DNA of 57,453 nt from Methanosphaera stadtmanae. GTDB taxonomy: Archaea > Methanobacteriota > Methanobacteria > Methanobacteriales > Methanobacteriaceae. The DNA lies in assembly GCA_015062825.1 (NCBI GenBank), contig SUTR01000010.1:1-57453 (forward strand), given 5' to 3'. Within the stretch, counting starts at the first letter, position 1. Every line of letters begins with the position of its first letter. The notes under the pieces were generated by a model. The model saw only the letters and a list, made by a program, of their open reading frames with translations, was not told the DNA's origin and searched no databases. Shown piece after piece: positions 43,133 through 48,790 of this stretch. The position numbers were made by a program, and so were the translations under genes.

Positions 43133-43870
43133 TTATAAGTCAACAATAAATGTACATGAATCGTCAAATTTAGAGATACATTCTACTTCTTCTATGAAAA
43201 TCTCTTTTCCATAATATATCTCTAAAATTCCTTTCAATATTCCCTTTGTCATATTACATGTAGGTAAATTATATTGAATGTTAAAACATTCTTTACAATC
43301 ATTATTTTTAAATATTAATGGTTCAACACTAGAAACCTTTAATTCTCCAAGACCTAATTGTTCGAATTTTTCCTTGATTTGTTCAAGTAATTCTTCCAGT
43401 GTTTCATATTTAAATTCTTCATGTAATGATTTGCCTATAATTTGACCTGTTGCTACTTCTAAAGGTTCCAATTGTAATCCATGCAACAACAATGTTGACT
43501 TAAATTGTCTGAATACTTCAAAATATAATTTTTCTTTATTGTTTATTTCATCAGTAATTTCTGGAGATTTATAAATTATCTTATCTGGATATATTTCTCC
43601 AATATAATCTGATACGACATAAAATAGTTTGCTTCTTCTATCCAAAGGATGTGATTTGTAATTTATTATTCCTTCATCAATTAGATTTTTTAAGTGAACA
43701 GAAATTGTTGATTTTGATTTACCTGTCTTACTAACTATTTCTGCTTCACTGACTTGACCATCTAATATGTTTAAGATTTGTATTTTTATAGGACTATCAA
43801 CAATCTTAATACCCTTATTTGTAGAATAAATTTTAATCTTTATGTCGTTATAATTGGTTATAGGCATCAT
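43133..43870 (-). CDS. msvR: MsvR-like redox-responsive transcription regulator
   Basis: 245 residues from tandem ATG codons at 43870/43867. A longer open frame to 44077 encodes only low-complexity hydrophobic sequence and is not the real N-terminus. Domains: ArsR-like winged helix (about 20-90; SEAEIVSKTGKSKSTISVHL is the recognition region) and a C-terminal V4R domain (about 110-245). Cysteines at 192, 195, 205, 231 and 239 are placed as in MsvR, the methanogen-specific regulator whose V4R cysteines respond to redox state. It lies tail-to-tail with the glycosyltransferase gene. No ribosome-binding site is visible and a TATA box lies 30 bases upstream, suggesting a leaderless message. Confidence 0.75.
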   Translation of the reverse strand: MMPITNYNDIKIKIYSTNKGIKIVDSPIKIQILNILDGQVSEAEIVSKTGKSKSTISVHLKNLIDEGIINYKSHPLDRRSKLFYVVSDYIGEIYPDKIIYKSPEITDEINNKEKLYFEVFRQFKSTLLLHGLQLEPLEVATGQIIGKSLHEEFKYETLEELLEQIKEKFEQLGLGELKVSSVEPLIFKNNDCKECFNIQYNLPTCNMTKGILKGILEIYYGKEIFIEEVECISKFDDSCTFIVDL

Positions 43871-43891
43871 AATTATTTGTATGTTAAAAAT

Positions 43892-43907
43892 CAAATATAA
43901 ATATTTT
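43892..43907 (-). promoter_or_regulatory. TATA box of the msvR-like gene
   Basis: On the minus strand AAAATATTTATATTTG, about 30 bases before the ATG at 43870. That spacing predicts transcription starting at or a few bases before the start codon. Confidence 0.45.
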
Positions 43908-43968
43908 CTAGATAAAATATTAAAAGAGTGATTATTCATTTTAAAAAATAGGATAAATTCATTAATGA

Positions 43969-43984
43969 TACTTAAGAATACGAA
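43969..43984. promoter_or_regulatory. possible MsvR-box-like dyad
   Basis: On the minus strand TTCGTA-TTCT-TAAGTA. The published MsvR site, as I recall it, is TTCGTA-N4-TACGAA, so one half matches fully and the other at four of six positions. It lies about 100 bases before the msvR-like start, upstream of its TATA box. MsvR is known to regulate itself in Methanothermobacter; binding here is inference. Confidence 0.35.
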
Positions 43985-44428
43985 CAAATTTATATTATTA
44001 TAGTGTATTAAATAATATGGAAAATTATTATATTTAAAAAATTTATAATTAATTAAAATAAATAATATAAAAAGCATTTAATTAATATTAGTTAATTTAA
44101 TTTTATAAATAAAATTATTATAGAAATCTAAGTTGTTTATGGAATTAATATTGTATTTTAAAGATATTAAATTATAATTAGATTTATTTAAACTTGAATA
44201 ATTTTCTTAAAATATTAAAAAATAAGAATTAATAGAGCATAATATATAAAGAGAAAGAAAATAAAGAATAATCTTAATTAAAGCATTTGTAAAAGGCTTT
44301 TATTTGGTTATTTTTTCTAAAAATATTGAAAAAATATAAATAATATTTGTACAAAAATGATTAAAGATTAATTAGAATAATTTAATTAAGAAATTTTAAT
44401 ATTCAAAAGAAAATAAGAAAAAAATAAA

Positions 44429-45559
44429 TTAGTAACATTTTAACAATATTTCTTTAACTTGTTGTTGAGTAAAAACTACAGGATTATTATCCATCCGTCC
44501 ACCAGTAAACGTAAGTTTAATTATATCATCAATATCATCCAATTTAATTCCAAATTCAGATAATTTAAGTACCTGAATATTCCCTGATACATTTTCAATC
44601 CATACATCAATTTCATCAACAGAATCCACACCCCAAGCATCCAAGAACAAATCCAAATTTTGAATATAATCCATATTTTGTTTAAGTACCTCAGATAATG
44701 TTAAACTTACAGCTAATCCATGAGGTATTCCATAAAGCAATGTTAAAGGATAACTTATGGAATGACAAGCAGTTGTTCTAGTATTGGAAAATGCCAAACC
44801 TGCAAAAAATGCTCCCATATACACTTTCTTTCTATATTCAAGGTTGTTTAAATCATCCAAAACCAATGGAAGATACTTTACAATAAGGGATATTGCATCT
44901 GTTGACAATACCTGAACAATACTATTTGTTGAGACAGACCAATAGGCCTCACATGCATGGGATAATGCATCCAATGCAGTAGATAACGTTAATTTTTTAG
45001 GCAATGAAAGTGTTAGTTCTGGTACAAGCCATGACTCTGTAGGATATAAGTAATCTGCATCGACTGAATATTTCTTAGTATTGTCGAAGTCCCATACTGT
45101 TGCCCATTTAGTACAGTCAGATCCTGTTCCGGCAGTTGTTGATGAAGCAATTATAGGAATATAATCAGTATTTTCTAAGTATTTCTTTGAAGTTATTAAG
45201 TCGACTACCTCTTCAACAGATATAACCCCATTGTCACTAAATGAATATAATGCAGAGATTACCTTTGCAAAATCTATAGTAGTTCCTCCACCAATTGCAA
45301 TTATTAATTCAGGCCTTTTTATAATTCTTTTAAAGTAATCAGAGATTAAATGAGTATCCAAACTTTTTAAGCTTTCATCAAAAATCACTAAACTTTCATC
45401 AAATCCCTTCAAGATTTCATCAAGATTATTACTTTCTATTAAGCGTTTACTTCCAATGAAAACCACATTGCTTTTTGTTGAAAATTCATCCAATCTATTT
45501 TTCAATTCATCAACATCATATTCATAGAATGTTATTGGAACATTAAATACCCAATCCAT
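44429..45559 (-). CDS. iron-type alcohol dehydrogenase, probable phosphonoacetaldehyde reductase
   Basis: 376 residues of the Fe-ADH family. AIGGGTTIDFAKVISA (about 88-103) binds NAD(P). The metal ligands lie in STALDALSHACEAYWS and FSNTRTTACHSISYPL and in PHGLAVSL. It resembles PhpC-type reductases that turn phosphonoacetaldehyde into 2-hydroxyethylphosphonate. It is the last gene of the four-gene phosphonate operon, 16 bases after the phosphonopyruvate decarboxylase gene. No 2-aminoethylphosphonate transaminase is encoded nearby. The family assignment is firm; the substrate is inferred from the operon. Confidence 0.8.
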   Translation of the reverse strand: MDWVFNVPITFYEYDVDELKNRLDEFSTKSNVVFIGSKRLIESNNLDEILKGFDESLVIFDESLKSLDTHLISDYFKRIIKRPELIIAIGGGTTIDFAKVISALYSFSDNGVISVEEVVDLITSKKYLENTDYIPIIASSTTAGTGSDCTKWATVWDFDNTKKYSVDADYLYPTESWLVPELTLSLPKKLTLSTALDALSHACEAYWSVSTNSIVQVLSTDAISLIVKYLPLVLDDLNNLEYRKKVYMGAFFAGLAFSNTRTTACHSISYPLTLLYGIPHGLAVSLTLSEVLKQNMDYIQNLDLFLDAWGVDSVDEIDVWIENVSGNIQVLKLSEFGIKLDDIDDIIKLTFTGGRMDNNPVVFTQQQVKEILLKCY

Positions 45560-45575
45560 ATGTTTTCCTCCATAA

Positions 45576-46706
45576 TTATTCTTTTAACTTGTTCATAAAA
45601 CTATTTTTATTCTCTATTGGTGTTGTAGTGGGCCTTCCAAGATCAGATCTAGAACCAATACTTACATTGACAATTAACAAAACAGGACCCTCTTTTTCTT
45701 TGAATGTTTGGAATGTGTCATTTAATTCATCCCTAGAGGATACAGTATACACTTTCTTGTATCCACAGTTTAATGCAATATTTCCTATATCAATATCTCC
45801 CATTATTGTAGGAAGTCCACCTACTGTCTCATGTGCCTGATTATTAAAGAGAATATGATAATAGTTTTCTGGTGATTTAGAACCTATTAATGCAACTGAA
45901 CCCATATGCATAAGGACTGCCCCATCCCCATCAAAGCAAAAGATTTTCTTATTTTTCTTATTTAAAGCTATTGATAATGCTATCATAGAAGAATGTCCCA
46001 TGGACCCAACTGTTAGAAAATCATTGCTATGGCCCTGATTTTTTTCTTCTCTATACTCAAATAGTTCACGTGATGCTTTACCTGTAGTTGAAACAACTAT
46101 ATCATCCAAGGATAAATTATCAACTATTGTTTTTATTGCATCTTCACGTGATAACTGATTATTGTTGGATTTATTTGTTTTGAATGATTCAAATGCTCCC
46201 TTGGATACTACAAATGCTACACTTTTACCCTTCTTTAATTTTTTAGAAAAATCATTTGCAAACAATTCTTTAAGTTCATCCATAGTTGAATCTTTAGTAA
46301 GTATTTCATAATCAATATCCAACAATTCAAGCAAATCTGTCGTAATTGCACCCTGTTTTACATGTTGTGGTTCATCCTTAAAGCCAGGTTGTCCTCTCCA
46401 ACCTATAACATATACAACTGGAATATTATATACATTTGGATCAGTTAAAGAAGTTATAGGATTTACTGCATTACCTAATCCAGAATTTTGCATATAAACT
46501 AGCCCATATTTACCTGTTGATAAATGAAATCCACTAGCTAGTGCAACGGCATTTCCTTCATTTGCCGCAATAATATGCTTATCACTTATGCCATATTTAT
46601 CTTCTATAAAATCACAAAATGCCTTTAATTGTGAATCAGGCACTCCCGTATAAAAAGAAACATCATTTTCTTTCAATAATTCTTCAAATTCAACAACATT
46701 TATCAT
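45576..46706 (-). CDS. ppd: phosphonopyruvate decarboxylase
   Basis: 376 residues, the usual length. FYTGVPDSQLKAFCDF (about 18-33), then HIIAANEGNAVALASG with the cofactor-activating Glu (E50), and the TPP motif FDGDGAVLMHMG running to HILFNN (about 250-283) are all present. NNQAHETVGG is strongly characteristic of Ppd and related sulfopyruvate decarboxylases; in those the two halves are usually separate subunits, which favours Ppd here. TPP- and Mg-dependent decarboxylation of phosphonopyruvate makes phosphonoacetaldehyde and pulls the unfavourable PepM reaction forward. It lies between pepM and the reductase gene. Confidence 0.93.
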   Translation of the reverse strand: MINVVEFEELLKENDVSFYTGVPDSQLKAFCDFIEDKYGISDKHIIAANEGNAVALASGFHLSTGKYGLVYMQNSGLGNAVNPITSLTDPNVYNIPVVYVIGWRGQPGFKDEPQHVKQGAITTDLLELLDIDYEILTKDSTMDELKELFANDFSKKLKKGKSVAFVVSKGAFESFKTNKSNNNQLSREDAIKTIVDNLSLDDIVVSTTGKASRELFEYREEKNQGHSNDFLTVGSMGHSSMIALSIALNKKNKKIFCFDGDGAVLMHMGSVALIGSKSPENYYHILFNNQAHETVGGLPTIMGDIDIGNIALNCGYKKVYTVSSRDELNDTFQTFKEKEGPVLLIVNVSIGSRSDLGRPTTTPIENKNSFMNKLKE

Positions 46707-46725
46707 AATATCACTACTTTAAATT

Positions 46726-48024
46726 TTATTTATCCGGTATTAATGTCAATATCTCCTTAATAGGCAAGCAGGCTTCATCTGCTTCATAACATCGATTATT
46801 TTTAAGAATTGTTTTGGCCGTTTGCATCATTGCAGGGTATGCGCTGCGTATTAGATGATTTGCATATATTACTATGTTTACTCCTCGTCTTGCAAATTCA
46901 TCTTCATAAACCTTGTTAAATGATGTAGGCACTACTACCAATGGCACATTTGGATATTCTTTTGTGAATTTTTCACAAAATTCAAAGATTTCATCAGGTT
47001 CCTTTTGTCGACTGTGAATCATTATACCATCAGCTCCTGCATTTACATATGCATATGCACGAGTTAATGCATCTTCCATTCCCTTATTTAATATTAAGGA
47101 TTCTATTCTTGCAATAATCATGAAGTCTTTTGTGGTCAATGCTTTTTTAGCTTGAGATATTTTTTGACTGAAATGTTCAATAGTATCCTGTGTTTGTTCA
47201 ACTTCTGTTCCGAACAATGAATTCTTCTTCAGTCCTATCTTATCTTCTATTATTACAGCAGAAACCCCTATTCTTTCAAGTGTTTTTACATTGAATACGA
47301 AATGTTCAATTTCACCACCAGTATCTCCATCCAATATGATAGGTTTTGTTGTTACTTCCATAATCTCATCTATCGTACGAAGACGACTGGTCATATCAAC
47401 AAGTTCAATATCTGGTTTTCCCTTAGCGGTACTGTCGGTTAGACTGGACAGCCACATTGCATCAAATGATTCAATTTCATTATCCTTGACTACCTTTGCA
47501 TTCTCCACCACAAGTGCACTTAATCCATTATGTGCTTCCATTGTCTTAACTATAGGTTTGAGATTTAATAATTTTTTAAGTTTATTTCTTCTTACTTCAG
47601 GCATGGAACTGGCCGACTTTACTGTTTCATTTAATTTATCTACACTTACGCCCTGTGTATATGGGATTTCAATTAGTTGTCCACCCCATTGCTTGAGTGT
47701 TTCTATAACATTTAAACGAATATTTTTTAAATCATTGCTTGTCCAGTCATCTCCATGTACAACATAATCAGGCTTTAGTTTTAGAAGGTTATCTGTATAG
47801 TCTAGTGTGTCTTGTGATATTACTTCTTTTACTCCACTAATATTTTCAATTATAAATGATCTTTCATCAAAGTCAAGGACGGGCAAGCGTTTATATGTAG
47901 CTATAACTTCATCTGTTAAAATACCAACTGTTAAATCGCCGTATTGACTTGCCTGTTTAATCAGGTTAATATGTCCGTGATGAAGAATATCCGCACTTAT
48001 TGCAGTGTATACTTTTTTAGTCAT
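46726..48024 (-). CDS. pepM: fused cytidylyltransferase-phosphoenolpyruvate mutase
   Basis: 432 residues with two domains. Residues 1-130 are a HxGH-type nucleotidyltransferase: HHGH at 15-18 and TQGVS (about 123-127), the counterpart of RTxGIST. Residues 150-432 are PEP mutase: LDGDTGG (231-237), the diagnostic E260-D261-K262-x5-N268-S269, and IMIHSRQKEPDEI. PepM converts PEP to phosphonopyruvate, forming the C-P bond that starts nearly all phosphonate pathways. The N-terminal domain could make a CMP-phosphonate from the end product. It starts two bases after the upstream pntC-like gene ends and is followed by ppd. Confidence 0.95.
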   Translation of the reverse strand: MTKKVYTAISADILHHGHINLIKQASQYGDLTVGILTDEVIATYKRLPVLDFDERSFIIENISGVKEVISQDTLDYTDNLLKLKPDYVVHGDDWTSNDLKNIRLNVIETLKQWGGQLIEIPYTQGVSVDKLNETVKSASSMPEVRRNKLKKLLNLKPIVKTMEAHNGLSALVVENAKVVKDNEIESFDAMWLSSLTDSTAKGKPDIELVDMTSRLRTIDEIMEVTTKPIILDGDTGGEIEHFVFNVKTLERIGVSAVIIEDKIGLKKNSLFGTEVEQTQDTIEHFSQKISQAKKALTTKDFMIIARIESLILNKGMEDALTRAYAYVNAGADGIMIHSRQKEPDEIFEFCEKFTKEYPNVPLVVVPTSFNKVYEDEFARRGVNIVIYANHLIRSAYPAMMQTAKTILKNNRCYEADEACLPIKEILTLIPDK

Positions 48025-48026
48025 GA

Positions 48027-48740
48027 TTATTCACCAAATTTATCTTGATATCTTCTTAAATCTTCTTTTGTATCTATTTCCGAACAGTAATATCCTTGAA
48101 TATCCATTGCATCAATACTTACTTTATCATATAGTAATTCATTCAATGCTTCTTCCGCATAAACATTAGTATTACCTTCATCACAGTATTCTCTGATTTT
48201 TTTCTTCCAAACTATCCAGTCTTTGTTTAATAATTTATATAATGGTTGACATGCAAGTGCATCATCACCAAAATAATCTACACTTACCTGTTTGACCTGT
48301 CCATCAACTACTTTTGCTTTAAAGTCTTTTTGAGGAATATCTGTTTGGCTATCCACAACCATGGAAGATTTGTTGGATTTGATTAACTTTGTTACTACTT
48401 CTTCATCAAATACCAAATCACCATGCAATAATAGAAGATCATCTGTTATATCATCTTCAATATAATCCAATGACTTAATATAATTGGTTGAATCATATAC
48501 TGGATTGTCAACAAATGTAAAGTTTATATCTGGAAAATTGTTTAGAGCATAATCCTTAAGAACATTTTTTAAATATCCTGTTGTTATTATAAATTCATCT
48601 ATATTAAAATTCTTAAGAGTATTTATTGTTTTTGAAAATATTGTTTGATTATTATTAATATTTATCATTGATTTAGGCACATTTTCTGTTAATTCTTCTA
48701 AACGAGAACCCATACCTGAATTTAAAATAATTGCCTTCAT
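48027..48740 (-). CDS. PntC/LicC-like nucleotidyltransferase
   Basis: 237 residues. MKAIILNSGMGSRLEELTEN (1-20) is the nucleotide-binding loop of NTP_transferase enzymes, with K22-like PKSMI following. LLLHGDLVFDEE has the metal-binding Asp, and YCSEIDTKEDLRRYQ closes the fold. Small stand-alone members next to PEP mutase genes include PntC, which makes CMP-2-aminoethylphosphonate; LicC (CTP:phosphocholine) is a close relative. Here it probably activates 2-hydroxyethylphosphonate. I chose ATG 48740 because the upstream GTG (48752) lies within the GAGTGAT ribosome-binding site. It is the first gene of the phosphonate operon. Confidence 0.75.
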   Translation of the reverse strand: MKAIILNSGMGSRLEELTENVPKSMININNNQTIFSKTINTLKNFNIDEFIITTGYLKNVLKDYALNNFPDINFTFVDNPVYDSTNYIKSLDYIEDDITDDLLLLHGDLVFDEEVVTKLIKSNKSSMVVDSQTDIPQKDFKAKVVDGQVKQVSVDYFGDDALACQPLYKLLNKDWIVWKKKIREYCDEGNTNVYAEEALNELLYDKVSIDAMDIQGYYCSEIDTKEDLRRYQDKFGE

Positions 48741-48790
48741 GTTATCACTCACAATAAAATATTAGTATCATATTCATTCTTGAAAAATAT

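Follow-up and report, generated by a model that had tools for sequence, protein, structure and literature searches.

Four adjacent genes on the minus strand of a Methanosphaera stadtmanae contig, running from 48752 to 44429, very probably form, on comparative evidence, one operon that makes CMP-activated 2-hydroxyethylphosphonate (HEP). They lie in a window of 57,453 nucleotides, the whole stretch of DNA that was analysed, which corresponds to contig C96 in a genome of 2.61 Mb that is 99.9% complete. The operon's first gene (P0004, 48027..48752, minus strand) encodes a nucleotidyltransferase of the LicC/PntC fold, a candidate CTP:HEP cytidylyltransferase. It is followed by P0003 (46726..48024, minus strand), in which an N-terminal Fom1-like cytidylyltransferase (CyTase) domain (about 47614-48024, minus strand; 1e-45 to 5x3d) is fused to a C-terminal PEP mutase (PepM). 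The third gene (P0002, 45576..46706, minus strand) encodes the phosphonopyruvate decarboxylase Ppd/AepY (TIGR03297, 474.7 bits, cut-off 312.5), and 16 bases separate its stop from the start of P0001 (44429..45559, minus strand), a group III Fe-dependent alcohol dehydrogenase (ADH) of 376 aa and a candidate phosphonoacetaldehyde reductase. The two preceding intergenic gaps, P0004/P0003 and P0003/P0002, are 2 and 19 bases. The PEP mutase of P0003 scores above its curated cut-off (TIGR02320, 426.6 bits vs 319.55), and the EDKxxxxxNS motif that defines this enzyme (PMC6697681) can be read in the translation as EDKIGLKKNS.

In the pathway that we propose, PepM would convert PEP to phosphonopyruvate, which Ppd would decarboxylate to phosphonoacetaldehyde. 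The Fe-dependent ADH would then use NAD(P)H to reduce phosphonoacetaldehyde to HEP, pocket residue Arg355 holding the phosphonate, and P0004, the Fom1-like domain of P0003, or both would combine HEP with CTP to give CMP-HEP. A LicD-type or other transferase might finally set HEP on a surface polymer, the acceptor being a guess. Gene order, protein families, conservation and the splits by clade and residue are direct results of computation, and we infer every enzymatic step, the roles of Arg355 and of His110 in P0004, and the polymer attachment from sequence and model comparisons. The earlier note had placed the branch point at HEP rather than 2-aminoethylphosphonate (AEP). Gene context, phylogeny, the residues of the pocket and the cytidylyltransferases encoded alongside give good support to the predicted reduction of phosphonoacetaldehyde in place of its transamination.

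That the gene after ppd encodes an Fe-dependent ADH, as the earlier note had recognized, is confirmed by matches to PF00465 (1e-21) and PF25137 (3e-33) and by the presence of all four metal ligands, D197, H201, H266 and H280; these domains and the D-H-H-H ligand set make P0001 a group III enzyme. The accompanying description of the enzyme as PhpC-like is supported as far as the Fe-ADH family and not in the strict sense, the best curated family being PsrA (TIGR03405), to which P0001 scores 237.1 bits, under the cut-off of 423.7. PDB and NCBIfam scores alone were rejected as a substrate call for P0001, placing the protein in the Fe-ADHs generally and no more precisely. Fe-ADHs are a broad family, and strong E-values of P0001 to methanol, lactaldehyde and other dehydrogenases could be taken to indicate that it acts on another aldehyde and that its proximity to ppd is incidental. 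We think this very unlikely, because the linkage is conserved over two domains of life and because the enzyme belongs to a clade of its own with invariant pocket residues that include an arginine. Phosphonate-linked Fe-ADHs (n=43, PsrA included) are separated from 23 others by a 100/99 branch, and the clade signature is found in 43/43 of them and in at most 1/23 of the other Fe-ADHs. All members of the P0001 group, which are 21-74% identical to P0001, have W207, T262, Y270, T273, R355 and N358. Outside the group these residues are missing or nearly so, and W207, T262, Y270 and R355 occur in none of the 23 other Fe-ADHs.

Alignment of P0001 with Escherichia coli FucO gives a structural context for these residues. 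R355 corresponds to Cys362, T262 to Leu259, S165 to Val164 and Y270 to His267, in the numbering of the K-12 protein, which is one lower than that of the PDB entries. In FucO these positions either belong to the lining of the substrate pocket or keep the catalytic water in place (PMC10324492), so that S165, T262, Y270 and R355 are distinctive residues of the clade at such positions, and an arginine at position 355 would suit an anionic phosphonate. From context, clade and pocket residues together, we propose that P0001 is a phosphonoacetaldehyde reductase. Its clade includes PsrA proteins encoded next to PhnY/PhnA or PhnX, enzymes that handle the same aldehyde; PsrA and P0001 have the same pocket signature and fall on the same side of the tree, although the score of P0001 is under the PsrA cut-off. 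The two PsrA loci examined look catabolic, unlike the window cassette. The position of PsrA, as the nearest curated family, beside phosphonate transporters and either PhnY/PhnA or PhnX would also be in keeping with an ADH that runs in reverse in a locus that degrades HEP. Such a role is extremely improbable for P0001, whose gene comes after those for PepM and Ppd in a compact operon and has neither a phosphonate transporter gene nor a hydrolase gene among its neighbours.

An enzyme for the transamination branch was looked for in the locus and in the genome. In agreement with the earlier note, Pfam scans of the ORFs of the glycan locus (36.9 to 56.8 kb) found no aminotransferase, and the whole-genome check that it had suggested gave no TRANSAMINASE for AEP above the TIGR03301 (PhnW/AepZ) cut-off of 360.8 bits, the best score being 185 bits. 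The genome does have class V aminotransferases, among them this one distant PhnW/AepZ relative, and a general aminotransferase encoded elsewhere might aminate phosphonoacetaldehyde to AEP, leaving the ADH another purpose or the removal of surplus aldehyde. We regard AEP as a very unlikely product. The 185-bit gene, on contig C2, is far under the cut-off and is present at full length in 19/20 genomes of the genus, regardless of PepM, which is found in 4/20; given this distribution it is probably a housekeeping gene. Furthermore, AEP-type loci keep the transaminase beside Ppd, the window nucleotidyltransferase is without the amine-facing Glu of PntC, and the ADH never substitutes alongside Glu-type nucleotidyltransferases among the matches listed.

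The separation of the two branches is apparent from a wider comparison of Ppd loci. At least 80 Ppd loci from named genomes were considered; they are the nearest relatives and therefore a biased sample. Among the matches listed, 64 loci outside Methanosphaera have a PepM within 6 kb of Ppd, and of these 28/64 contain an Fe-ADH, 16/64 a class V transaminase, 0/64 both and 20/64 neither. A check of one class V transaminase from these loci showed a genuine AEP transaminase, at 468 bits against a cut-off of 360.8. A nucleotidyltransferase scoring >80 bits to P0004 accompanies 25/28 of the ADH loci and 0/16 of the transaminase loci among the matches listed. The earlier note had expected the hydroxyethyl headgroup to be the less common one; the 28 ADH-type against 16 transaminase-type loci among the matches listed, in a biased sample of near relatives, do not support this.

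A single branch (100/97) of the PepM tree sets the ADH-type proteins apart from all others, which indicates one old divergence of the whole pathway and not many independent events. Because of this one deep split, Fisher p-values for ADH versus transaminase loci overstate the case and are of descriptive use only. A few rows of the trees are likewise not independent: loci with a P0004-type nucleotidyltransferase in which no ADH could be seen received the ADH-type label on their nucleotidyltransferase score in the NTPT and PepM trees, and the truncated locus L081 was given it manually in the PepM tree. The genes and residues may thus covary through shared descent of a single type of pathway, and its product would be HEP by analogy with Fom1 and PsrA.

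The two cytidylyltransferases provide residue-level evidence for the same branch. P0004 matches 6pd1 and 1jyk in PDB sequence searches, and its model (pLDDT 92.6) has LicC 1jyk and PntC 6pd2 among its three best folds. In Tde-PntC, Glu196 and Glu104 are in a position to bind the AEP amine, and the LicC equivalents are Asp192 and Asp105 (PMC6697681). Among the CYTIDYLYLTRANSFERASES substrate residues, the Glu104/Asp105 position is taken by His110 in P0004 and the LicC Asp192 position by Glu200; P0004 has the fold of AEP-specific PntC and not its amine-facing Glu104. Residues 110 and 199 of P0004 belong to the headgroup pocket. Among the matches listed, position 110 is His in 30/30 readable ADH-type proteins and Glu in 16/16 of the transaminase type, and position 199 is Ala in 31/31 of the former vs Trp in 16/16 of the latter. 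P0004 is probably a member of a HEP-specific class of LicC-fold nucleotidyltransferase. Fom1 (5x3d) makes CMP-HEP (PMC6697681), and its CyTase domain shares 50% identity with that of P0003. Identity to Fom1 is 42-66% for CyTase domains of ADH-type loci and 31-40% for those of transaminase-type loci, and the ADH-class residues S10, K45, L74, N79 and D93 are common to Fom1 and the P0003 domain, which thus belongs with the Fom1 type by closeness and by class residues. That a single step should have two nucleotidyltransferases counts against the HEP interpretation.

The cassette is recurrent. PepM, Ppd and ADH genes occur in identical order in three other Methanosphaera genomes and in a second copy in this genome (contigs C96 and C92), and all four genes occur in identical order in four genomes from other genera of the family. 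There are nine further copies of the PepM-Ppd-ADH block, with the nucleotidyltransferase in front in 8/9, and the named record Methanosphaera sp. rholeuAM6 bears a matching block. Repetition of the same order across genomes indicates that the arrangement is not due to chance. In 151 genomes of the order, complete P0001-type ADHs are each about 1-2 kb from a PepM; of the incomplete ones, a piece in G057 ends the PepM contig and a piece in G069 is on a contig other than that of PepM. A further P0001-type ADH, decayed and carrying five stops (G113:C3:31003-31614), in a genome with no PepM over the cut-off, is a probable relic of a lost cassette. The second copy in the present genome (L016:8559-12213, contig C92) encodes PepM, Ppd and ADH proteins that are 85, 76 and 72% identical to those of the window; no nucleotidyltransferase adjoins it, and a LicD gene of another type is found just upstream.

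Comparison with relatives suggests how the cassette came to its present position. It is flanked on one side by P0005 (48956..49987, plus strand), a LicD-family transferase (PF04991, 1.8e-34) that is divergent from the operon and is a candidate transferase only, and on the far side by an MsvR-family regulator (43133..44077, minus strand; NF053755, 223.9 bits, cut-off 220). The MsvR ORF at 43133-44077 is overlong at its start, the family match beginning at residue 84 and most orthologues being about 245 aa, which would suit a start near 43870, probably the true one. MsvR belongs to a conserved locus: in five other Methanosphaera genomes (L140-L144), which lack the cassette at this site, MsvR and LicD are adjacent or have one short unmatched ORF between them, the two being roughly 200-650 bases apart. 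Two of these five genomes bear the cassette elsewhere and three are without PepM, and their P0005 orthologues, in the same place, are 63-65% identical to the window protein. It is most likely that the cassette (44429-48752) was inserted into a locus that is more widely conserved in the genus. A search for an insertion scar, in the form of flanking repeats or a composition difference, gave nothing clear.

The destination of the activated HEP is a separate question. HEP attachment to a surface polymer is plausible. Its assignment to the glycan of the window in particular is unproven and weak, since the same locus and LicD exist without the cassette in relatives, and comparison of the locus across the five relatives tied no dedicated transferase to the window cassette. 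LicD is present in 19/20 Methanosphaera genomes, most of them without PepM, where it must use some other activated headgroup, and LicD without PepM occurs in 90/151 genomes of the order. Co-occurrence with LicD was accordingly rejected as evidence for attachment, LicD being widespread without PepM and present at the cassette-free site. The Methanosphaera cassettes occupy different genomic places, two of them (L016 and L019) adjoining different LicD genes, and related bacterial loci adjoin a LicD or CDP-glycerol transferase gene. These varied places and the lack of a fixed transferase would also suit production of HEP for a soluble product, such as an antibiotic-like or storage phosphonate; the Fom1-Fom2-FomC route ends in the antibiotic fosfomycin, and the same idea has been proposed for a Methanocorpusculum cluster (PMC10035134). 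A soluble product is nonetheless unlikely, as no further tailoring enzyme accompanies the cassette copies, and CMP activation together with the LicD or CDP-glycerol transferases of many related loci fits polymer tailoring (PMC6697681). In a broader form of the surface-polymer reading, gut bacteria and methanogens would share a recurrent module for HEP tailoring that has a His-type LicC-fold CTP:HEP cytidylyltransferase of its own and that, in Methanosphaera, would decorate an already existing surface polymer of the archaeon; we give this broader proposal an even chance of being right.

HEP esters are known on actinomycete phosphonoglycans. The fosfomycin and phosphinothricin pathways provide known cases in which a reductase forms HEP, through Fom1-Fom2-FomC and PhpC (PMC6697681, PMC5125639). 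Like the proposed pathway of the cassette, that branch has a CyTase-PepM fusion, Ppd and an Fe-dependent phosphonoacetaldehyde reductase leading to HEP and CMP-HEP; in contrast to it, the cassette has no downstream antibiotic genes, has an extra LicC-fold nucleotidyltransferase and is in or near glycan loci. The AEP-type system of PntC with AepX, AepY and AepZ shares with the cassette the PepM-CyTase fusion, Ppd, the LicC-fold nucleotidyltransferase and a nearby LicD (PMC6697681), whereas in the cassette the ADH replaces the AEP transaminase and His replaces the amine-facing Glu. A plasmid of Segatella copri DSM 18205 has, according to the NCBI annotation, the same gene set (aepX, aepY and phosphonoacetaldehyde reductase) in a polysaccharide locus; it differs from the cassette in being bacterial and in having Gln as the second metal ligand of the ADH, and its aepX, at 2,010 bases, matches in length the fused NTPT-CyTase-PepM proteins of other loci.

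Archaeal phosphonate clusters have been reported as a four-gene cluster in Methanobrevibacter millerae ZA-10 and as PepM-Ppd-adh1 in Methanocorpusculum vombati (PMC4987999, PMC10035134). Modification of a wall polysaccharide, with the product unnamed, was suggested for the former (PMC4987999, PMC10035134) and an antibiotic for the latter (PMC10035134), and the ADH of one archaeal cluster was named a likely phosphonoacetaldehyde reductase (PMC4987999, PMC10035134). We found no report of a Methanosphaera phosphonate cluster in the literature searched. Archaeal PepM-Ppd clusters are thus already known; what is new is the Methanosphaera cassette and a sharper sequence rule, by which HEP and AEP tailoring loci can be told apart from the pocket-Arg Fe-ADH, the His-type nucleotidyltransferase and the Fom1-class CyTase residues. 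If correct, our model would bring hydroxyethylphosphonate into methanogen surface chemistry, where phosphonates have so far been genomic suggestions in the literature searched, and would mean a phosphonate-decorated archaeal envelope.

Methanobrevibacter and gut bacteria also have a third kind of PepM and Ppd locus, which contains neither an Fe-ADH nor an AEP transaminase (L087:2959-9971, L048, L100, L094, L099, L066, L098, L027 and L044). In L087, a 391-aa Rossmann protein with a Sacchrp_dh_NADP domain is encoded directly before Ppd; its model (pLDDT 77.8) has malate/lactate dehydrogenases as best folds, at a TM of about 0.5. Genes for a DUF6564 protein and an NAD epimerase precede the Rossmann protein, and a LicD follows Ppd. 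Loci of this third kind possibly represent another use of phosphonoacetaldehyde or phosphonopyruvate.
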